Shown: positions 2,581 to 32,445 of the stretch, one piece after another | Layout of the letters: each line of letters starts with the position of its first letter | Numbering within the stretch: position 1 is the stretch's first letter | Source of the DNA: Parabacteroides sp. | Lineage (GTDB): Bacteria; Bacteroidota; Bacteroidia; Bacteroidales; Tannerellaceae | DNA length: 36,753 nucleotides | Direction of reading: 5' to 3' | Assembly: GCA_017937385.1 (NCBI GenBank) | Contig: JAGBDR010000073.1 | Coordinates: 1 to 36,753 of the forward strand | Program-made: the position numbers and the translations under genes | Notes under the pieces: model-generated | What the model saw: the letters and a program-made list of their open reading frames with translations, nothing else | What the model was told of the DNA's origin: nothing | The model's database searches: none

Positions 2581-2809
2581 GTGTCGAAAAGCGCTGTAGG
2601 CGCTTCGCATAATAGCCCGGGGTTTCAACCCCGGGACGTTTATCCTCATCCCCATTAGTGCCCTGTAAGGGCACAGCTATACGTAAATTATTTATATTCA
2701 CATATATAGCGGCACCCTTACAGGGTGCAAACACAATGGGAGGAATACACCACCCCCCAGGTTTCAACCTGGGGCTATCATGCACGGCGCCTACAGCGCC
2801 TTTCGACAC
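2581..2809. repeat. Nested palindromic repeat element (MITE/REP-like)
   Basis: The ends are 23-bp inverted repeats differing at one base: GTGTCGAAAAGCGCTGTAGG plus CGC at 2581-2603, and its complement at 2787-2809. Inside are two GC-rich hairpins with TTTCAA centres, CCCGGGGTTTCAACCCCGGG at 2616-2635 and CCCCAGGTTTCAACCTGGGG at 2755-2774. A further inner pair is TGCCCTGTAAGGGCA (2659-2673) and its near complement (2711-2729). No protein is encoded. The layered symmetry is typical of non-autonomous elements moved by a transposase in trans, and elements of this look are common between Bacteroidales genes. It separates the convergent nitroreductase and GH78 genes and could also act as a bidirectional terminator. 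Confidence 0.75.
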
Positions 2810-5261: not shown

Positions 5262-5266
5262 CATCG

Positions 5267-5346
5267 TGGTTTTTTCATAATAGTATTAGATTTAAGGTTA
5301 ACAAAGTTGGTTAGGGGTTGTCGTGAGACAGCCTTTAATTTTTTAT
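5267..5346 (+). ncRNA. Probable small RNA with terminator
   Basis: Starting about six bases after the -7 box, a transcript of roughly 80 nt is predicted. It runs through TAGTATTAGATTTAAGGTTA and ACAAAG and ends at a terminator hairpin. The hairpin is GGTTGTC (5316-5322), loop GTGA, GACAGCC (5327-5333), followed by a T-rich run to 5346. No start codon with a useful frame is present. I recall very similar promoter-to-hairpin segments in other Bacteroidales genomes, but this could not be checked. It is transcribed away from the GH78 gene and toward the tail of the FKBP gene. The function is unknown. Confidence 0.6.
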
Positions 5347-5374
5347 AGCGGTTCCTTTCCACTACAAGGACATG

Positions 5375-22669: not shown

Positions 22670-24988
22670 ATGAAACATATATGGACTATCCTCCTGCTTT
22701 TCCTGCTCTCATCTTCCGCGTTGCCAACTCCTGACAACGCGCTCGGATGGAAAACATACCTTTCTTACAACAATACCAACCAGGTAGAAGAATCAGCCGA
22801 CCAGGTATTTGTCGTTGCGGAAGGCGCTCTCTACCTATATGGGAAAGAGGACAACAGCATCAAACCTTACTATAAGGGAAACGGACTGAACGACACGGAT
22901 ATACAATTCATATCCTACAACAAACAGACCCAATCCCTACTGATCGTCTACAAGAACGGCAACATCGACATCCTGCAGGGAAGTTCAGTCAAGAATATTC
23001 CCTATCTGTCCACGACGACCTCCATCCGGGAGAAAGAGGTCAATTCCGTCATGCTTCATAATGAATATGCTTACCTGTCCATCAAATCGGGCATAGTAGT
23101 CGTCAACATGAAGAAAAACGAAATAACCGATACCTACAACCTTTCTATGAATATCACTTCCTGTGCCATCCGGAACAACCAGATATATGCCTCCACAACC
23201 GAGTCTTCCCGCATCCTGTATGCCTCACTCAAAGACAATCTGTTAGACAAAGCGAACTGGAAACCCTATCCGATTTCCGGATTTCCGGCAGGCCAGTCTG
23301 TTGACAAAGTCGTCCTGTTCAACAACCAGTTGTTCTACTTGACTCGAAACAAAGGAGTCTACTACGAATCCAACGGTACAACCGCTACTTTGGCAAGTAA
23401 CGCCTCCATGAACAACCTGAAAGTCGTCGGTGACAAACTGGCCTGTATCGCCAATTCGCAAATCTATCTTTTCACCGACACAAAAACGTTCGACCGGATC
23501 AACAACCTGACCCTCAAAGATATCAGCACCTACCAGACCAACACCTACTGGATAGCCGAAGGCAGCAAAGGCCTGCGCTCCATCAAACGAACCGGCGCCA
23601 ACCAGTTCGAAGCGGTCAACGAGGCGATTGTATTGGATGGGCCTTACTCAAACAGTCCTTATAGAATTGTATGCAAAAACGACCATGTGTATATCATACC
23701 GGGAGGAAAAGACTTTACAAACGGTACTTGGTTCAACAAAGGAGGAGCAATCATGATATACGACTACGACAAATGGACCGTATTGGAACCTTCCGTCGTT
23801 CAAAGCAAACTTAAAGTATGGCCTAAAGACTATACAAGCATCGTTGTCACCTCCAATGACTCTGGAGAAGAAATCATCTACACCTCTTCTTTCGGTTATG
23901 GCCTTTTTCATTTCATAGAAAGAGAACCTTCTATCGTTTACGACAGAAGAAATAGTCCACTTGAAAACGCCAACAACAATGCAGGAAATTATTGCCGTAT
24001 AGACGGACTCGCTTTTGACAAAGAAGGGAACTTATGGATGACCAATTCCGAAGTAAGCAAGGCCATTAAAATTTTAGACAAGGAAGAGAAATGGCACAGC
24101 TTGTCCGTCGAATCGTTGAACGGCAAATACACGGTGAACGATATACTCATTACTTCCAACAATGACAAATGGATAAACATATCTCGTCCTACCGATCAAA
24201 TATGTCTGACAATGATAGCAAACAGCAACTCTTTGGATGAGGCGGATTCCTACTCTTTCAAAAGTTTTATCGACACGGACGGCAACGATTTCTCCCCCAG
24301 CAACTACACCTGCATGACGGAAGACAAGAACGGATATGTCTGGGTAGGAACCAACAAAGGAGCCATCTACTTTACCAATCCCCGACTGGCCACATCGGAA
24401 AACAGCTCCTCCATGCGCTGCACACGTGTGAAACTACTTAACGAAGACGACGAACCCTACTATTTCCTCGACAACACCATGATAACCTGTATCAAGGTTG
24501 ACCACGGCAACCGGAAATGGATCGGGACACAAAACAACGGTGTCTATGTTTTGAGTAGAGACAATCAAGAGATCGTCCATCAGTTCAACACCACAAACAG
24601 CCCGCTCCTCTCTGACCATATCTACTCGATAGATATCAACGAGAAAACAGGCGAAGTCTTCATCGGAACCGACAAAGGACTGGTTTCCTACCAAGGAGAA
24701 GCGACCGAAGGCAGAAGCGACTATTCCGACGTGTATACCTATCCCAATCCCGTACGACCCGAACACAGGGATAAAGTGACCATCACCGGATTGATGGACA
24801 ACTCGATCGTAAAGATCACCGACCTGAACGGAAACCTGATCTACCAAACCCAATCTTTAGGCGGACAAGCCATCTGGAACTGCCGGAACGCCAAAGGCGT
24901 CCGCGTCGCTTCCGGCATCTATCTTGTGCTTGCTGCCACCGAAGATTCACAAGAAAGTGTAGTTACTAAAATTGCAATTATTAAATAA
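22670..24988 (+). CDS. porZ: PorZ-like type IX secretion beta-propeller protein
   Basis: The 772-aa exported protein has a signal peptide (MKHIWTILLLFLLSSSA) and many blade-like repeats in two beta-propeller regions. Two-component-propeller-style blades such as NGYVWVGTNKGAIYF and NRKWIGTQNNGVYVLS lie in the second. The last 80 residues form a T9SS-type C-terminal domain (YPNPVRPEHRDKVTITGL to VTKIAIIK). Length and layout match PorZ, a member of the PorU-PorV-PorQ-PorZ cell-surface attachment complex in Porphyromonas. The name rests on architecture, not an alignment. It follows rdgB by 14 bases and is followed six bases later by a small Cys-rich gene. Confidence 0.7.
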   Translation: MKHIWTILLLFLLSSSALPTPDNALGWKTYLSYNNTNQVEESADQVFVVAEGALYLYGKEDNSIKPYYKGNGLNDTDIQFISYNKQTQSLLIVYKNGNIDILQGSSVKNIPYLSTTTSIREKEVNSVMLHNEYAYLSIKSGIVVVNMKKNEITDTYNLSMNITSCAIRNNQIYASTTESSRILYASLKDNLLDKANWKPYPISGFPAGQSVDKVVLFNNQLFYLTRNKGVYYESNGTTATLASNASMNNLKVVGDKLACIANSQIYLFTDTKTFDRINNLTLKDISTYQTNTYWIAEGSKGLRSIKRTGANQFEAVNEAIVLDGPYSNSPYRIVCKNDHVYIIPGGKDFTNGTWFNKGGAIMIYDYDKWTVLEPSVVQSKLKVWPKDYTSIVVTSNDSGEEIIYTSSFGYGLFHFIEREPSIVYDRRNSPLENANNNAGNYCRIDGLAFDKEGNLWMTNSEVSKAIKILDKEEKWHSLSVESLNGKYTVNDILITSNNDKWINISRPTDQICLTMIANSNSLDEADSYSFKSFIDTDGNDFSPSNYTCMTEDKNGYVWVGTNKGAIYFTNPRLATSENSSSMRCTRVKLLNEDDEPYYFLDNTMITCIKVDHGNRKWIGTQNNGVYVLSRDNQEIVHQFNTTNSPLLSDHIYSIDINEKTGEVFIGTDKGLVSYQGEATEGRSDYSDVYTYPNPVRPEHRDKVTITGLMDNSIVKITDLNGNLIYQTQSLGGQAIWNCRNAKGVRVASGIYLVLAATEDSQESVVTKIAIIK

Positions 24989-25564: not shown

Positions 25565-26551
25565 CTACAACCCTAACCTTGCCGAGATCTCCAACATCTT
25601 TTGGATCGGGCGGATGGCTTGTTTCTGCACCTCTTCGTCGACGAAGATTTCAGGGAGTTCGTATTTCAGGCAGTTGTAAAGTTTTTCCATTGTGTTCAGA
25701 CGCATGAAATTGCATTCGTTGCAAGCGCATGTACCGTCGGCAGGAGGAGCAGGGATGAATTCCTTGTCGGGGCTTTGCTTGCGCATTTCGTGAATAACGC
25801 CGCTTTCCGTCGCAACAATGAACTGCCGCTTGTCCGACTTGACCGTATGCTTCAGAAGGGCTGCGGTCGATCCTACGAAGTCGGAGACTTGTACAACGGG
25901 TTGCTTGCATTCCGGATGAGTGATCACTTCGGCTTCCGGATACTGTTTTTTCAATTCCAATATCTTTTCCAATGAGAACTGTTCGTGCACATGGCAAGCG
26001 CCGTCCCAAAGCAGCATCTTGCGTCCAGTGATGCTGTTTATGTAATTACCCAAGTTCCGGTCGGGCCCGAAGATGATCTTCGTGTCTTCCGGAAAACTTT
26101 CAACGATCTGGCGGGCGTTGGTTGAAGTCACCACGACATCCGTCACGGCCTTTACAGCCGCGGTCGTATTCACATACGAAATGACCACATGATCGGGATG
26201 TTGCTTGACAAATTCAGCAAAATCGGTGGCCGGACAGCTATCCGCCAGCGAGCAACCGGCATTCAGGTCCGGAACCAGCACTTTCTTGTCCGGGCACAAC
26301 ACCTTCGCCGTTTCCCCCATAAAATGAACGCCGCAGAAAACAATGATGTCGGCTGTCGTCTTGGCTGCCTGTTGCGCCAATGCCAAACTGTCTCCCACAA
26401 AATCCGCTATATCCTGAATATCGCCCGTCTGATAGTAATGAGCGAGGATAACAGCGTTCTTTTCTTTACGCATCTTGTTTATCTCTTCCTTCAGGTCCAC
26501 TCCTTTGGGAATGGGCGCGTCCATATATCCGATCGATTGGTTTGTCAACAT
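25565..26551 (-). CDS. nadA: Quinolinate synthase A
   Basis: The 328-aa iron-sulfur enzyme condenses iminoaspartate with dihydroxyacetone phosphate to give quinolinate, the NAD precursor. Three similar domains are visible from VILAHYYQTGDIQDIADFVG onward. The cluster Cys ligands lie in FCGVHFMGETAK, the CSLADSCP segment and GTCACNECNFMRLN. The ATG at 26551 is chosen because the family begins near the PIPKGVDLKEEI segment and the longer frame has unlike residues. nadB and nadC are not present. Its upstream region contains a perfect TTATCAAC dyad and is part of the candidate origin. Confidence 0.95.
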   Translation of the reverse strand: MLTNQSIGYMDAPIPKGVDLKEEINKMRKEKNAVILAHYYQTGDIQDIADFVGDSLALAQQAAKTTADIIVFCGVHFMGETAKVLCPDKKVLVPDLNAGCSLADSCPATDFAEFVKQHPDHVVISYVNTTAAVKAVTDVVVTSTNARQIVESFPEDTKIIFGPDRNLGNYINSITGRKMLLWDGACHVHEQFSLEKILELKKQYPEAEVITHPECKQPVVQVSDFVGSTAALLKHTVKSDKRQFIVATESGVIHEMRKQSPDKEFIPAPPADGTCACNECNFMRLNTMEKLYNCLKYELPEIFVDEEVQKQAIRPIQKMLEISARLGL

Positions 26552-26672
26552 TGTTACCTGTATTAAATGATTGTAAAATTCAATAACCACCCACGAGCAT
26601 AAACCGCTATTCACGGTCTATCAACAAAGTTATCATCATTTTTTATAACTGATAATCTTTGTCTTACTCCTT

Positions 26673-26693
26673 TTATCAACAAAGGGTTGATAA
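26673..26693. promoter_or_regulatory. TTATCAAC-GTTGATAA dyad by the nadA promoter
   Basis: TTATCAAC (26673-26680) and GTTGATAA (26686-26693) are perfect inverted copies around five bases. They sit at the predicted nadA start of transcription, just downstream of a minus-strand -7 box TATCTTTG (26698-26705). It could be an operator for a NAD-responsive repressor or a pair of DnaA-like sites; the sequence fits both. Confidence 0.45.
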
Positions 26694-26697
26694 CGCG

Positions 26698-26705
26698 CAA
26701 AGATA
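26698..26705 (-). promoter_or_regulatory. -7 box of nadA
   Basis: The minus-strand reading is TATCTTTG, matching TAnnTTTG. It predicts a leader of about 140 bases before the ATG at 26551, long for this genome. Confidence 0.4.
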
Positions 26706-27254
26706 AAGACTTTCTTGAATCCTGCATAAGAAATACATATAAAATGCGTTCAAATCCATCACACCCTCTCTAAAACCCATCCTCCTGCAAGGCCGTCCGA
26801 ATCCCTGAGTTTCCCCAGTTATCCACAATCCTTATATCATATTCCTATTTATTCTTTCTCTTTTAATTTTAGTAAGATGAATATAATGGCCTGTTGAAAT
26901 CGTTTATAGATTTTGGTCACAATACTTGTCCGATTCGTTATTAAACGGTGGAAACCATTTATGAAATAGATACTAACAGGTTATCCATCGCTTTATTTCC
27001 TGTTATTCTTTATTTTACAGACTTTATTCGTTTTCAGTTGAAAACTGTCTGTGTGTAAAAGTTTATAGCCGTCGGGGGCTGTTGATACGTGAATAACCCT
27101 TGTTGATAGGGCGTAACAAATAATCCGTTCTTTTTGTTGCATGATAAAAGTAAAAGGATGTATAACGGACTAATCGAGTAAAGCAAGCATTATTTTTCAT
27201 TTTGTGTCCACCACTTATCAATAGCTTTTCAACGACATATCCACATTAATTCAC

Positions 27255-27262
27255 TACTTTTG
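27255..27262 (+). promoter_or_regulatory. -7 box of the SpoU methyltransferase gene
   Basis: TACTTTTG matches TAnnTTTG and lies only 20 bases before the ATG at 27283, so the leader is very short. Confidence 0.45.
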
Positions 27263-27282
27263 CAAGCAAAGAAAAGATAGCT

Positions 27283-27813
27283 ATGCGCAAGTTGAAGATA
27301 ACAGAATTGAACCGTCTGACTCCGGAAGCATTCAAAGATAGTAAAAAAATCCCGTTGGTCGTTGTGCTCGACCATGTAAGAAGCTTGAACAATGTAGGAT
27401 CCGTGTTTCGTACGTCCGATGCGTTCCGGGTGGAAAGCATTTACCTGTGCGGCATCACGGCTTGTCCGCCTCATGCCGAGATCCACAAGACGGCTTTGGG
27501 AGCGGAAGAGACGGTTGACTGGAAGTATTTCGAGGATACGATGGAGGCTGTTGATAACTTGAAACGGCAAGGGTATACGGTCTGTGCGGTTGAACAGGCT
27601 GAAGGAAGTACGATGTTGGATAAGTTGCTGTTGGACAAGAATCAAAAGTATGCCGTTATCATGGGAAACGAAGTGAAAGGGGTTCAACAATGTGTCGTTG
27701 ATAACTGTGATATGTGTATTGAAATACCGCAATACGGGACCAAGCATTCGTTGAATGTTTCGGTGACGACCGGCATCATCATCTGGGATTTCTTCAAACA
27801 GTTGTCAGAGTAA
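27283..27813 (+). CDS. SpoU/TrmH-family RNA 2'-O-methyltransferase
   Basis: This 176-aa enzyme has a SPOUT knot fold and uses S-adenosylmethionine to methylate the ribose of tRNA or rRNA. Motif 1 is LDHVRSLNNVGSVFRTSDAF, with the conserved Asn and Arg. Motif 2 is YAVIMGNEVKGV. Motif 3 is IPQYGTKHSLNVSVTTGIIIW, which forms the knot. No extra N-terminal RNA-binding domain is present, as in the short tRNA-type members. The target nucleotide cannot be told. The last nine bases overlap the end of the opposite-strand DUF4294-like gene. It is the first gene right of the candidate origin. Confidence 0.88.
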   Translation: MRKLKITELNRLTPEAFKDSKKIPLVVVLDHVRSLNNVGSVFRTSDAFRVESIYLCGITACPPHAEIHKTALGAEETVDWKYFEDTMEAVDNLKRQGYTVCAVEQAEGSTMLDKLLLDKNQKYAVIMGNEVKGVQQCVVDNCDMCIEIPQYGTKHSLNVSVTTGIIIWDFFKQLSE

Positions 27814-28410
27814 GCCGTTTTCGACCAGTACGACCACCCGTTCCGTCATGGCGTCTTTTCCTTTGGGATCGTATTCGGTTTTCAGGCTGGCGCCGAACAT
27901 GCCGGCAAACAGGTTCCAGAAACCTGCCCGGAAACTGCCTAAGTAGGCTTTCAACAGGTTGTAACTCGATTGGTTGCATTCCCGGTCGATCAGTTTGATA
28001 AGTAGTTTGCCTTGTGAGAAAGTCAGCTTTTTCAACTGTGGTTTATATTCTTGGAAAAGTTCTTTTTCCATCCGTTTCAGGTGGGCCTGGCGGGATTTTT
28101 CGTCGGGAAGCGTTTCTATGTATTCGTAGGTTTCGATCAGGGTTTCATACACCATTTTGGCATACGGCAGTGTGCGTTTCACATCCCGGACCAGTTTGTT
28201 GTAGCGTGCCTGTTCACGTTGGTTCTTAAACTTTACCGGTGGATAAATGTAGATTTCCCGCAAGTGGACAATAGGGACCGTGTCCTTTCCATCCAGATAA
28301 GCCTTTTGCACTCCTTCGGGAACGGCCTTGATCTTCAATGTTTGCGTGTGAGCTCCCGCTGCACACAACATGAATGCTATCAATATTTTATACTTGCTTT
28401 TTCTCCACAT
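27805..28410 (-). CDS. DUF4294-like exported protein
   Basis: The 201-aa protein begins with a signal peptide (MWRKSKYKILIAFMLC, cut near AGAHTQ). The charged body has helix-forming stretches, including REQARYNKLVRDVKRTLPYAK and DEKSRQAHLKRMEKELFQEY. LPYAKMVYETLIETYEY and LLIKLIDRECNQSSYNLLKA resemble the Bacteroidetes-specific DUF4294 family, whose function is not known. A minus-strand -7 box (TACTTTTG, 28417-28424) lies so close that the message may have almost no leader. It overlaps the SpoU gene tail to tail. Confidence 0.65.
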   Translation of the reverse strand: MWRKSKYKILIAFMLCAAGAHTQTLKIKAVPEGVQKAYLDGKDTVPIVHLREIYIYPPVKFKNQREQARYNKLVRDVKRTLPYAKMVYETLIETYEYIETLPDEKSRQAHLKRMEKELFQEYKPQLKKLTFSQGKLLIKLIDRECNQSSYNLLKAYLGSFRAGFWNLFAGMFGASLKTEYDPKGKDAMTERVVVLVENGLL

Positions 28411-28507
28411 TGTTCACAAAAGTAATGGATTTGCGGATAGCATGAGACGGTTTTACAGAATTTGACTAAGAAAATCACGAATCTGTTGTGAGATGTATGG
28501 AAATCAT

Positions 28508-28515
28508 TATCTTTG
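28508..28515 (+). promoter_or_regulatory. -7 box of the dinD remnant
   Basis: TATCTTTG matches TAnnTTTG and lies 33 bases upstream of the ATG at 28549. The promoter of the damaged gene is therefore still present. Confidence 0.45.
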
Positions 28516-28548
28516 TGACTCTATATAAACAACTAAAATCAACAGACT

Positions 28549-28761
28549 ATGAAACACTTTTCTCTTCATTTCCTCACGAATATCAATCACTCTAAGTTGC
28601 AGCCGTTGTTGGGCTATGCGAAATGGGATAACTTTATTAACAATGTAGTGGTAAAGGCAAAGGAGGCTTGTTATCTGATTGCCCAAAACGGAGATAGTCG
28701 AAAACCTCAAATCGCTTTTGCCCAGACTTATTTTGCCGTACAAATGCATATCAATAATTGA
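28549..28761 (+). pseudogene. DinD-like gene remnant with internal deletion
   Basis: The 70-residue product joins two separate pieces of DinD (DNA-damage-inducible protein D, normally near 280 aa). [21 protein letters not shown] at 21-41 is the N-terminal conserved block. [20 protein letters not shown] (42-61) normally lies about 50 residues further on. In DinD the second block is preceded by YAC and the first ends with EAC, so the join may reflect recombination between short GCTTGT-like repeats at 28666-28671. The C-terminal half is also lost after FAVQ. The family identity comes from memory of these motifs. It may be expressed as a small protein but is unlikely to work as DinD. Confidence 0.7.
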
Positions 28762-28782
28762 CCATCTAAACGACACCTTGCT

Positions 28783-29589
28783 ATGAAACCAATCAGTTTA
28801 TTCATTTTGTTTTGGATATCTATCCACATCCAGGCTGTTGATAACCTTCGGATTTCGGATATCCGTAGTTTGGGAATGGGAGGAAACGGGGTTACGCAGT
28901 CGGTTTTGTTTAATCCGGCGCTGGTGACTTTGCATACGGATAAAATGCTTTATATCAACTATTTGAATCGGTATGGTGTAAAGGAGTTGGGAACGATGGG
29001 AATGGAATTTGTCTATCCGAATCCGTGGTTGTCGGCAGCTGTTGATATCTCTTCTTTCGGATACGACCGGTATAGGGAAACGCTTTTTCGTGTGTCGGTC
29101 GGGAAACGGTTGAACGATCGGTGGAAGATGGGGATCGGTTTTCAATATCAGATGTTGCAGACCGAGTTGTGGGAAGCGGTTCCGAAACGGCTTTCCACGG
29201 ATGTCGGTCTCTTGTTTACACCCATTGACAAGCTGTTGATTGGAATGTTGATAATGAATTTTCCTTCTGTTTCCATTTATAAGCATACTATTGAAACAAA
29301 CTGTTTTACCGGTTATTCTGTACAAATTGGTTTTCAATGGGAGATAATCAACAGCTTGTTGATAGTGGGAACTGTCGAGACTAATCAGGCACACACATGG
29401 GCCGGAAATGCGGGGATTGAGTATGTCCCGTTCAGAAACTTTCGTGTACGGGCGGGAGTACAGACCGTTCCTCTCCTGCCTACTTTGGGTATCGGGTATC
29501 GTTTGGCAAGATTTACAATCGATGTCGCGACTGTTTATCATCCGGTTTTGGGAGTCAGTTCCGGACTGGGTTTGAGTTATTCTTTTTAA
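28783..29589 (+). CDS. Outer-membrane beta-barrel protein, PorV/PorQ-like start
   Basis: The 268-aa protein has a signal peptide (MKPISLFILFWISIHIQA). Its first mature segment, DIRSLGMGGNGVTQSVLFNPALV, is like the N-plug of FadL/PorV/PorQ-type barrels, where Gly-Gly and Asn-Pro-Ala are conserved. The rest alternates aromatic and polar residues (LSAAVDISSFGYDRY, RVRAGVQTVPLLPTLGIGYRL) and ends in the aromatic SYSF expected of a barrel C-terminus. It is short for PorQ (about 340 aa), so I leave it unnamed. It is 12 bases before the HhH-barrel gene and likely works with it. Confidence 0.65.
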   Translation: MKPISLFILFWISIHIQAVDNLRISDIRSLGMGGNGVTQSVLFNPALVTLHTDKMLYINYLNRYGVKELGTMGMEFVYPNPWLSAAVDISSFGYDRYRETLFRVSVGKRLNDRWKMGIGFQYQMLQTELWEAVPKRLSTDVGLLFTPIDKLLIGMLIMNFPSVSIYKHTIETNCFTGYSVQIGFQWEIINSLLIVGTVETNQAHTWAGNAGIEYVPFRNFRVRAGVQTVPLLPTLGIGYRLARFTIDVATVYHPVLGVSSGLGLSYSF

Positions 29590-29601
29590 TCCGGATTGAC
29601 T

Positions 29602-31629
29602 ATGAAACGAATGTTTATAAACTTGTTGGTATTTCTGTTCATAAACAGTTATCAACTTAAAAGCCAGACACTCTATTCTGTTGATAAGTGGATGGAATAT
29701 ATAGAAGAGATGGCTTTGGAAACGGAAGATGAGGCGCGTATCGAGTCGCTTTATGCAGATCTTTCCTATCTGGTCGAGCACCCTTTCGAACTCAACACCG
29801 TGACGGAAGAACAGTTGAAACGTCTCCCTTTTTTGTCCGATTTGCAGATACGGGAACTGTTGGAATATCGTTCCCGTTATGGAAAAATGGTCACTCTTTA
29901 TGAACTTAAAAATGTGGAATCGTTCGATTTGGAAACGATTTCCTTGCTTGTCCCGTTTGTCTATATCGGTGAAAAGACGGTTGATAAACGTCCTATTACT
30001 GTGAAAAACCTGTTGAAGCAAGGTTCTAATGATTTGCAAATCAGATATGACCAATGTTTTCAACAAAAGAAAGGTTATTGTTCATATCCCGACAGCATCC
30101 TGCAACAGTATCCGAACCGGAAGTATTTGGGAGAGCCATTCTATCACTCTTTACGTTATTCGTATGCTTTCGATGAACGCATCCAGTTCGGGCTGGTCGC
30201 GGAAAAGGATGCGGGAGAACCTTTTTGGAACCGGTATCATAAAGGGTACGACTACTACTCGGTACATCTCTTTCTGAAAGAGATGAATACATGGTTGAAA
30301 AGTCTTGCTATAGGGGATTATAAAGTATCTTTCGGGCAAGGGTTGGTTGTCAGCCATGATTTTTCTCCCAGCCGGAACGTCCTTGTCTCGCAAGCGGAAA
30401 GGAGGACAAACGGATTCCGCCGTCATTTTTCAACCAATGAAAGCGACTTCTTCCGGGGAGTAGCCGCTACTGTCAACTGGAAAAAGTTCGATATCAGCCT
30501 GTTCTGTTCGTATCGGAAATTGGACGGCAGTACGGACAGTACAGTTGTCACTTCGTTCAAAACGGATGGTTTGCATCGCTTGGTGCGGGACAGGGAGAAA
30601 ATGCGCAACGTATCTATGTCGGTATATGGCGGGAATATACGATATGCGACTCCCGATGTCTGTGTCGGCCTGACCGCCCTCTCCTATTCTTTCGGGAACC
30701 ATTCGGTACAGCCGGATCCGAAGCCTTATAACTTTTTCTATTTTCGGGGCAACCGGAATTGGAATGCCAGTGTGGATTATCTGTTGAAAAATAGGTTGAT
30801 TAAGTTTTATGGCGAAACAGCTTTGAGTCGGAATGGAGCAGTTGCTTCCTTGAATGCCTTGCAGTTGACGCCGGCTTCTTATTTTTCTTTGTTGGTATTG
30901 TATCGGTATTATGACAAACGCTATCAGGCTTTTTTCGGAAATGCCTTTTCACAAAATTCGGCTGTCCGGAATGAACAGGGTGTGTATATGGGAATGCAAT
31001 GGACTCCTTTCAGCCATTGGAAATTATCCGCCTATGCCGATATATTCCGGTTTCCTTGGTTGAAATATGGGGTGGACGCACCATCGACAGGAAAAGAATA
31101 TATGTTGCAGCTTGATTATGCACCTAACCGGAACTTGTCTGTGTACGTCCGCTATAAACACAAACGAAAAGAAAATATAGAACCTGACCGTCAACAGCGT
31201 TTGCGGGTGCAAGCTTTGTATGCGGTCTCTTCGTCCGTTTCGTTACGGACATCCGCAGACGGCATCGGGTATACGGAAGCGGATGATAAGAGCAAAGGAT
31301 GGATGATTGCTCAAAGCGTAGGTTGGAAACCGGTTGATATCCCTGTTCAGGCAGATTTTTATGTGGCAGGGTTCCATACGGATAATTATCAAACCCGGCT
31401 TTCCTCCTACGAAAAGAATCTCTTGTATGCTTTCAATATGCCTTTCTTTTATGGAAAAGGGCTCCGGTTGGCGTTTTCTTTCCGGTGGAATATCGTGAAA
31501 CAGCTATCTTTTTCCGCTAAGTTGGGATATACCCGTTATGCGGACCGTGATGTAATCGGTACCGACTTGGAAGAGATTGCCGGAAAATCCAAAGCAGATG
31601 TATATACGTTGTTGCGTTGGAAATTCTGA
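29602..31629 (+). CDS. Outer-membrane barrel with N-terminal ComEA-like HhH domain
   Basis: The 675-aa protein has a signal peptide (MKRMFINLLVFLFINSYQLKSQ). A helix-hairpin-helix region follows at about 60-120. PFELNTVTEEQLKRLPFLSD and the following RELLEYRSRYGKMVTLYELKN match the ComEA layout of LNTAT, LPGIG and YRE-GPF-ELKN. Residues 150-675 look like a large beta-barrel ending in TLLRWKF, a typical C-terminal aromatic strand. HhH domains in ComEA bind double-stranded DNA during uptake. A DNA-related role here is inferred, not shown; HhH folds also bind protein. An ATG at 29602 is used instead of the TTG at 29596. It follows the smaller barrel gene. Confidence 0.7.
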   Translation: MKRMFINLLVFLFINSYQLKSQTLYSVDKWMEYIEEMALETEDEARIESLYADLSYLVEHPFELNTVTEEQLKRLPFLSDLQIRELLEYRSRYGKMVTLYELKNVESFDLETISLLVPFVYIGEKTVDKRPITVKNLLKQGSNDLQIRYDQCFQQKKGYCSYPDSILQQYPNRKYLGEPFYHSLRYSYAFDERIQFGLVAEKDAGEPFWNRYHKGYDYYSVHLFLKEMNTWLKSLAIGDYKVSFGQGLVVSHDFSPSRNVLVSQAERRTNGFRRHFSTNESDFFRGVAATVNWKKFDISLFCSYRKLDGSTDSTVVTSFKTDGLHRLVRDREKMRNVSMSVYGGNIRYATPDVCVGLTALSYSFGNHSVQPDPKPYNFFYFRGNRNWNASVDYLLKNRLIKFYGETALSRNGAVASLNALQLTPASYFSLLVLYRYYDKRYQAFFGNAFSQNSAVRNEQGVYMGMQWTPFSHWKLSAYADIFRFPWLKYGVDAPSTGKEYMLQLDYAPNRNLSVYVRYKHKRKENIEPDRQQRLRVQALYAVSSSVSLRTSADGIGYTEADDKSKGWMIAQSVGWKPVDIPVQADFYVAGFHTDNYQTRLSSYEKNLLYAFNMPFFYGKGLRLAFSFRWNIVKQLSFSAKLGYTRYADRDVIGTDLEEIAGKSKADVYTLLRWKF

Positions 31630-31638
31630 TAACTTTTG

Positions 31639-31646
31639 TAGCTTTG
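31639..31646 (+). promoter_or_regulatory. -7 box of the radical SAM gene
   Basis: TAGCTTTG matches TAnnTTTG and sits 20 bases before the ATG at 31666. The gene thus has its own promoter just after the HhH-barrel stop. Confidence 0.45.
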
Positions 31647-31665
31647 TAAACAAATATGAATCAAT

Positions 31666-32445
31666 ATGTCAACAATTCTTTTTGATAAAATCGTGTTCGG
31701 GCCGATACAGAGTCGTCGGTTGGGAGTTTCTTTGGGGGTAAATTTGTTACCTGCGGATGGGAAATTGTGTTCGTTCAACTGTATTTATTGCGAATGCGGG
31801 TTGAACGAAGAACGGCGTACGCACAGCAAATTGCCGTCTCGTGCGGAAGTAAAAGAGGCCCTGATACAAAAATTATCCGCCATGCAGGCGGAGGGAACGG
31901 CACCTGACGTCATCACCTTTGCCGGAAATGGTGAGCCGACCCTGCATCCGGAGTTTGCCGGCATCATCGACGATACGATCGAAGCACGCGATCGCTTTTT
32001 CCCGAAAGCCAAGATTGCCGTGCTTTCCAATTCGACCATGCTTCATAAGGAGGAGGTTTTCCAGGCGTTGAACAAGGTCGATGACAATATATTGAAATTC
32101 GATTCCGTCATGAGTTTCCGTATCAAGCAATTGAACGATCCGTGCTCCTTCTCTTTTTCTTTTGATTACCTGTTGAAACACCTTTGCCGTTTCAAGGGCA
32201 ACCTGATTATCCAAACGATGTTTCTGGAGGGAGAAAAGGATGGCCGAAGCGTGACCAATACGACTGACCCGGAAATATTCGGCTGGATAGAAGCTCTAAA
32301 GAAAATCAATCCCAAACAGGTCATGATCTATACCATCGACCGCGAAACGCCTGTCAAGAACCTGCGGAAAGTCTCAAAAGAGAAACTGGAGGAGATCGCT
32401 GGCCGTGCCCGCCGGGAAGGGTTTGAGGTGACGGTGGCGTATTGA
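31666..32445 (+). CDS. Radical SAM protein (COG0731-like)
   Basis: The 259-aa enzyme binds a [4Fe-4S] cluster through Cys35, Cys39 and Cys42 in LCSFNCIYCECG (CX3CX2C, with an extra Cys44). It would use SAM to make a 5'-deoxyadenosyl radical. FAGNGEPTLHPEF is the GGE-like SAM-contact strand and AVLSNSTML the next strand. The C-terminal VMIYTIDRETPVKNLRKVS segment resembles the wyosine-related COG0731 branch. The substrate is not known. A strong hairpin lies 41 bases past the stop. Confidence 0.8.
   Translation: MSTILFDKIVFGPIQSRRLGVSLGVNLLPADGKLCSFNCIYCECGLNEERRTHSKLPSRAEVKEALIQKLSAMQAEGTAPDVITFAGNGEPTLHPEFAGIIDDTIEARDRFFPKAKIAVLSNSTMLHKEEVFQALNKVDDNILKFDSVMSFRIKQLNDPCSFSFSFDYLLKHLCRFKGNLIIQTMFLEGEKDGRSVTNTTDPEIFGWIEALKKINPKQVMIYTIDRETPVKNLRKVSKEKLEEIAGRARREGFEVTVAY

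Follow-up and report, generated by a model that had tools for sequence, protein, structure and literature searches.

Chromosomal origins that lie apart from dnaA are already on record in the phylum of the bacterium treated here. In Prevotella intermedia OMA14, for example, the predicted oriC is located far from dnaA, an arrangement that is common in the phylum (PMC4755523). The basal origin element known as BUS is composed of a DnaA box followed by DnaA-trios, and the published mismatch limit for the box is two (PMC8287927, PMC10721633). In E. coli, DnaA boxes are enriched around oriC beyond what base composition would give, more so on the lagging strand, and the non-coding DnaA-box clusters datA and DARS lower or reset the amount of active DnaA (PMC12371093).

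The DNA we analyzed, hereafter the window, is a stretch of 36,753 nucleotides that makes up one contig (C74) of a 128-contig draft genome of 3.73 Mb. We propose that the spacer between its divergent nadA and spoU-type genes is the chromosomal origin oriC, and from the sequence we put the probability of this at roughly 0.94. The spacer resembles the predicted P. intermedia OMA14 origin in its skew transition, its several DnaA boxes and the distant dnaA; unlike there, a conserved core can be defined here, the comparison of box positions covers 50 stretches and ten genera, and a profile of the core was tried on other genomes (PMC4755523). The literature found (subscription papers and DoriC lay outside the search) neither names the nadA-spoU spacer as oriC nor describes a one-sided intragenic box array in this phylum. 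The features of the spacer and its borders are as follows.

25568..26548, minus strand: nadA, quinolinate synthase (PF02445, E=1.7e-124)
26549..27282: spacer, putative oriC, 734 bases with the ATG taken as the start of nadA, between divergent nadA and the spoU-type methylase gene
26618..26626, plus strand: upstream DnaA-box-like site CTATCAACA, in the variable part of the spacer
26673..26681, plus strand: upstream DnaA-box-like site TTATCAACA, in the variable part of the spacer
26817..26921, plus strand: putative oriC core, match to profile R1 with 69.3 bits (the window is one of the 28 training rows)
26818..26887: putative DNA unwinding element, with the lowest computed stability among all 70-bp stretches of the window
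26819..26827, plus strand: box I, TTATCCACA, facing right
26870..26887, plus strand: six consecutive NAN triplets, DnaA-trio-like, read 3'-5' away from box II
26892..26900, minus strand: box II, ATTTCAACA, facing the AT-rich tract
27036..27044, minus strand: weak box TTTTCAACT; a number of relatives have TTATCAACA or TTTTCAACA nearby
27080..27088, minus strand: box GTATCAACA, position kept in close relatives
27101..27109, minus strand: box CTATCAACA, position kept in several relatives
27237..27245, plus strand: box ATATCCACA, position kept in close relatives
27283..27810, plus strand: SpoU-family RNA methylase gene (PF00588, E=1.2e-35)

An initial annotation, made from the letters of the window, had read this spacer as a candidate origin away from dnaA, and its reading is supported both by the skew minimum within the spacer and by the boxes that relatives keep. 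The gene-free stretch it described is present, with 734 bases in place of 731; so are the perfect box at 26819 and all five further boxes it had named, at 26618, 26673, 27080, 27101 and 27237. The perfect box itself was dropped from the argument: TTATCCACA occurs 48 times in the genome and its reversed word 26 times, therefore a single perfect copy is little evidence. With at most one mismatch allowed, the word is found 16 times in the whole window against 7.9 expected, a count reached in 2 of 100 shuffles. For counting we used the motif TWTCMACA, which was picked after inspection of enriched words in relatives and the window (the word list mixed spacer and gene side, the flanks of 16 of the 28 loci having come from the wrong side of spoU). 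Seven copies are present in the spacer, while dinucleotide shuffles contain 0.26 on average and none of 100 reaches seven. Among 4740 overlapping 735-bp control windows from three relatives, the maximum is four, and seven copies are found in none.

The cluster is not peculiar to one genome. Of 50 family stretches, 34 (the window counted) have divergent nadA and spoU genes with a gap of 516-1204 bp, and these 34 nadA-bounded spacers were used for box counts. Together they contain 136 copies of TWTCMACA (shuffle mean 5.4, maximum 11). The initial annotation would have been contradicted by spacers of close relatives lacking boxes; at least one copy is present in 33 of the 34, again with the window counted, and the exception, L096 from genome G029, has no copy in its spacer yet gives a core profile match upstream of spoU. 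Relative to the spoU start, boxes recur at about -465 (+), -395 (-), -250 (-), -200 to -180 (-) and -45 (+). These places are filled by interchangeable box variants, so that letters change and the place stays. At the place of box I, for instance, relatives have TTATCCACA, TTATCAACA, TTTTCCACA or TTTTCAACA, and some are without a strict box. The positions are kept in most of the genera sampled (50 stretches, ten genera). All six stretches of genus g11 lack such a spacer and have a gene directly upstream of spoU; in L096, L110 and L230 no strict box is found upstream of spoU, and relaxed boxes are present. With respect to identity of the sampled relatives, one family-level stretch is identical to Massilibacteroides vaginae over 3725 bp, and L096, a genus-group relative, to Parabacteroides sp. 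An277 over 3525 bp; these identities point to a Parabacteroides-type bacterium of the Tannerellaceae as the probable source of the window.

Conservation among relatives is strongest around boxes I and II, and the interval between them has the properties predicted for an unwinding element. The AT-rich tract that the initial annotation had placed right after the 26819 box is real in the sense that 26818-26887, beside the boxes, has the lowest computed stability of any 70-bp stretch in the window, and both skew minima of the window (cumulative GC skew at 26860, keto skew at 26831) fall within it. At a scale of 50 bp, 26839-26888 ranks third, at most 0.4 kcal from the first. Toward box II, which has a weaker tandem repeat near 26902-26908, the tract ends in candidate DnaA-trios. 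For BUS, at least three NAN trios are expected within 16 bp of a DnaA box; here a run of six starts 4 bp from box II, compared with a shuffle mean of 1.65 (p=0.004). The anchor for this analysis was present in 32 of the 50 stretches. Over these 32 sequences NAN runs sum to 150 against 73 expected and the best triplet register is identical (offset 3) in 30, with a run of two or less in ten. As in BUS, the box adjoins triplets with a middle A and faces an AT-rich tract (PMC8287927, PMC10721633). Unlike in BUS, the adjacent box II, ATTTCAACA, has three mismatches to TTATCCACA, where the published limit is two (PMC8287927); it has one mismatch to the looser TTWTCMACA. Further differences are that only one of the six triplets reads 3'-GAT-5' and that the tract is flanked on its opposite side by a perfect box pointing toward it (PMC8287927, PMC10721633). 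On the side of box I, visual inspection suggests a mirror tract in which every third base is T. A weak second core match on the left side of the spacer, at 26620-26694, scores 7.2 bits, no more than chance would give, and was rejected.

We infer that DnaA binding and duplex opening take place at the core. DnaA would bind at 26819 (box I) and at 26892, where box II points the opposite way and has a weak tandem partner, and would then spread onto the tract with an A at every third base (26870-26887). The AT-rich duplex between the two boxes would open, helicases would be loaded at the opened duplex, and forks would depart to the left and to the right. The downstream boxes (27036-27245) might help in building the initiation complex.

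The boxes do not end at the border of the spacer. They continue for about 4 kb rightward inside genes, and this continuation is the new element described here.

27549..32178, boxes on both strands: one-sided array of 11 TWTCMACA inside five genes, right of the spacer
Starts of the array 8-mers, with strand: 27549 (-), 27949 (+), 28821 (+), 28836 (-), 29040 (-), 29246 (-), 29357 (-), 29679 (-), 30058 (+), 30782 (-), 32171 (-)

Counted over 5 kb rightward from the start of spoU, the window has 11 boxes, and 13, 12, 13, 13 and 11 are present in G025, G028, G019, G017 and G011, respectively. In 5-kb control windows the mean is 1.0-1.8, and the maxima are 5, 8 and 7 in G025, G028 and G019; in G011 the two control windows with the most boxes belong to its own origin region. 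On the left side, between -6000 and -1000, there is no box in the window and there are 2, 1, 3 and 5 in G025, G019, G017 and G011 (this stretch is incomplete in G028). The array is absent from G012, which has no boxes on the right side, and was not seen in G049. Among 18 named loci with spoU near nadA, where the counts cover 0.7-5.7 kb right of the spoU start, it is weak or absent in a number (6, 2, 0, 8, 5, 0, 1, 5, 6, 3, 5, 4, 4, 2, 0, 1, 1 and 10 boxes). Similarly to the E. coli enrichment with its lagging-strand preference, the boxes gather beside oriC beyond base composition, in our case on the right side and with 8 of 11 on the minus strand; the enrichment in E. coli is broad and takes up several percent of the chromosome, whereas here 11-13 boxes are packed into about 4-5 kb of mostly coding DNA on one side (PMC12371093).

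Could the intragenic boxes be a by-product of amino acid and codon usage, or sites of gene control, and not a DnaA reservoir? We consider this a serious alternative, albeit one with somewhat less than an even chance. Synonymous shuffling of the five right-hand genes leaves room for it, as 2.8 boxes and not zero are expected, but none of 1000 shuffles reaches the 11 observed. In six Tannerellaceae relatives the own count was reached in 0 of 300 shuffles each, and in four Bacteroides-type loci, hand-picked for high counts, in 0 to 3 of 300 (the named loci in this test were L079, L017, L003, L008 and L021, all with at least five boxes). Taken gene by gene, only orf28783 is significant (5 boxes versus 0.65, p=0.001), and the p values of the other four genes, 0.12 to 0.43, speak for the by-product. 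Permuted motifs speak against it: 1 of 500 reaches the count of the window and 0 of 500 the pooled 49 of the window, G025, G019 and G017. The four highest pooled permuted motifs overlap the same word, TTATCAAC. Conservation is also higher for codons that carry boxes than for identical codons at other places in G025 (p=0.002), G028 (p=0.005) and G017 (p=0.0006); in G019 (p=0.096), G011 (p=0.20) and L079 (p=0.067) the direction is the same but the difference is not significant, which again leaves the by-product its place. Because the genomes compared are related, these tests of the array are not independent.

By these counts, the array is an excess of DnaA-type boxes beyond chance, codon use and motif composition, and a titration region would be expected to show an excess of this kind close to oriC, over what composition and coding require. 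The datA and DARS loci of E. coli lie away from oriC. Our array is like them a cluster of DnaA boxes, and unlike these non-coding loci it has its boxes in genes directly beside oriC (PMC12371093). By analogy with E. coli, titration of DnaA would be the likeliest use of the array. Its 11 boxes would be replicated in the first seconds after initiation and would take free DnaA out of circulation; each origin would thus carry its own brake on re-firing. For the array acting as such a reservoir we see about an even chance. Put together, oriC in Parabacteroides-type and some related Bacteroidales may be composed of the spacer and an arm that extends about 4 kb to one side; around ten boxes would be encoded there within protein-coding genes through synonymous choice and form a co-replicated reservoir that helps to time re-firing, a model that we would back at even odds. 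Recoding the intragenic arm with synonymous codons, at no change to the proteins, would open DnaA titration to testing in a lineage distant from E. coli.

The assignment of the spacer as oriC is carried further by strand composition. The initial annotation had asked where the skew minimum of the whole chromosome falls. The minimum of the window is inside the spacer, and in three complete chromosomes of the same genus (G025, G028 and G019, each a single contig) it is in the counterpart upstream of spoU: with twenty 20-kb samples per chromosome, the sampled minimum lies between the two stretches bracketing spoU in all three. Upstream of spoU, the distance from its start to the local GC-skew minimum is 232 bp in G025, 232 bp in G028 and 436 bp in G019, which places the minima inside the core or about 130 bp from it at most. 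In G025 the switch is still upstream of spoU, though nadA is 10 kb off on the other side of spoU. A skew minimum at the site, as is typical of DnaA-dependent origins, is therefore observed in the window and in three complete relatives. It is not sharp or not at the site in G017, G011, G210 and G049. G017 has its local GC minimum at a distance of 8 kb from the start of spoU and its keto minimum at 0.9 kb; G011, from another genus, has both core and array, yet its coarse and local skew minima are both elsewhere.

These data also bear on the possibility that the spacer is a DnaA-regulated promoter or a datA-like titration site and that replication starts elsewhere. DnaA is known to act at boxes close to promoters. 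The spacer is located between divergent genes and gives seven promoter-like matches compared with 3.5 in shuffles (terminator-like matches number 0 versus 0.7, and neither count is decisive), box clusters exist elsewhere, such as 8 in 5 kb at 445-450 kb of G028, and G011 has core and boxes without the skew minimum. Nevertheless, we regard this explanation as very unlikely, given that the skew flips in the core or within about 130 bp of it in the window, G025, G028, G019, G012 and G251, and that the sampled chromosome-wide minimum is also there in the three complete chromosomes. Initiation at dnaA, the usual bacterial arrangement (PMC10225481), was rejected with hardly any doubt left: in G025, G028 and G019 dnaA is found at about coordinate 380, 0.9-1.2 Mb on the circular map from the skew minimum, and the genome studied here has its single dnaA match on another contig (C9), in agreement with the initial annotation, which saw no dnaA in the window. 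The 20 kb that hold this dnaA have a skew near zero or negative with no switch and contain no R1 match at E<=0.1 (L083). As for a local switch that merely reflects gene direction, nadA and spoU do diverge at the spacer, but we can practically dismiss it since the third-position GC skew of the top strand, in which the reported change of codon choice at the spacer is confirmed, ranges from -0.45 to +0.01 in 15 of 15 genes on the left and from -0.00 to +0.35 in 8 of 8 on the right (23 genes hand-picked from the ORF list) and so tracks the side of the spacer and not the gene strand, and whole-chromosome samples show the switch as well.

With the spacer taken as oriC, its core was used as a search profile. 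R1 comprises 28 rows and 105 positions (30 core rows were available; L093 and L102 were left out). In the window, the score of the core is followed by 10.6 bits at the same site on the opposite strand, and the best value elsewhere is 7.9. At E<=0.01, R1 matches 53 of 63 genomes in the family (25 of 35 outside training) and 87 of 199 in the order (84 of 196 outside training). The Bacteroides-type loci L003, L008, L017 and L021 have a core match in the nadA-spoU spacer. Five untrained genomes were examined for skew, with exact agreement on both local measures in two, on a single measure in one, and weaker agreement in the other two; three of the five, G168, G210 and G251, are single-contig genomes among the matches listed, 92 genomes without a match being unlisted. 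In G012, where nadA and spoU are far apart and the match is near neither, the local GC and keto minima are both inside the R1 match, in a 20-kb stretch that was retrieved before the match was known; coarse skew of this genome is noisy, and its lowest sampled value comes after 3.74 Mb, compared with the match at 0.227 Mb, in a series that leaves out the last 1 Mb. In G251, from another family, the match lies between nadA and spoU and contains both the keto and a shallow GC minimum. The keto minimum of G168 is inside the match and its GC minimum 1.8 kb away, and no match to nadA or spoU is close by. G210 has its keto minimum some 320 bp from the match, and its GC skew does not reach a minimum within the stretch. 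For G049, the coarse bracket of 1.29-1.505 Mb agrees with the match at 1.421 Mb, without a local switch. The spacer offers a testable origin, with core sequence and search profile, for gut bacteria in which dnaA misleads origin finding, and read-depth estimates of growth in situ depend on the correct origin.

Several minor observations concern the neighborhood. The nadA next to the origin in L096, L097 and L239 (G029, G036 and G038) has 72-75% identity to that of the window, spoU 80-89%; replacement of the gene or a diverged lineage is possible. In G025 (C1, 3794742-3806646) spoU separates nadA from the origin, nadA being on the far side, which suggests a rearrangement at the origin. To the left of the origin there is a PorZ-type gene (22670-24985, plus strand), and to the right (28783-29586, plus strand) a weak PorV/PorQ-family match, with 31 bits against a curated cut-off of 90, so type IX secretion genes possibly flank the origin on both sides. 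The 677-amino-acid protein encoded at 29596-31626 (plus strand) has a helix-hairpin-helix domain (PF12836) as its sole match; a relative of it is encoded within 2 kb of the core in G012, although nadA and spoU are not there. An RNA element in the spacer was considered and rejected, as an Rfam scan at gathering thresholds gave two matches in the window, both outside the spacer: the Bacteroidetes sRNA FopS (RF04319, 60.9 bits, 5266-5347, plus strand) and Acido-Lenti-1 RNA (RF01687, 39.2 bits, 2590-2635, minus strand). Far from the origin, TWTCMACA occurs 8 times in 5 kb in L138 (G028:C1 445001-450000) and 7 times in 5 kb in L175 (G019:C1 4465001-4470000). Finally, G009, G010, G011, G023, G026, G041 and G049 match the core a second time, on the same strand and 0.5-2.6 kb away from the first match, which suggests duplicated or bipartite origins in some relatives.
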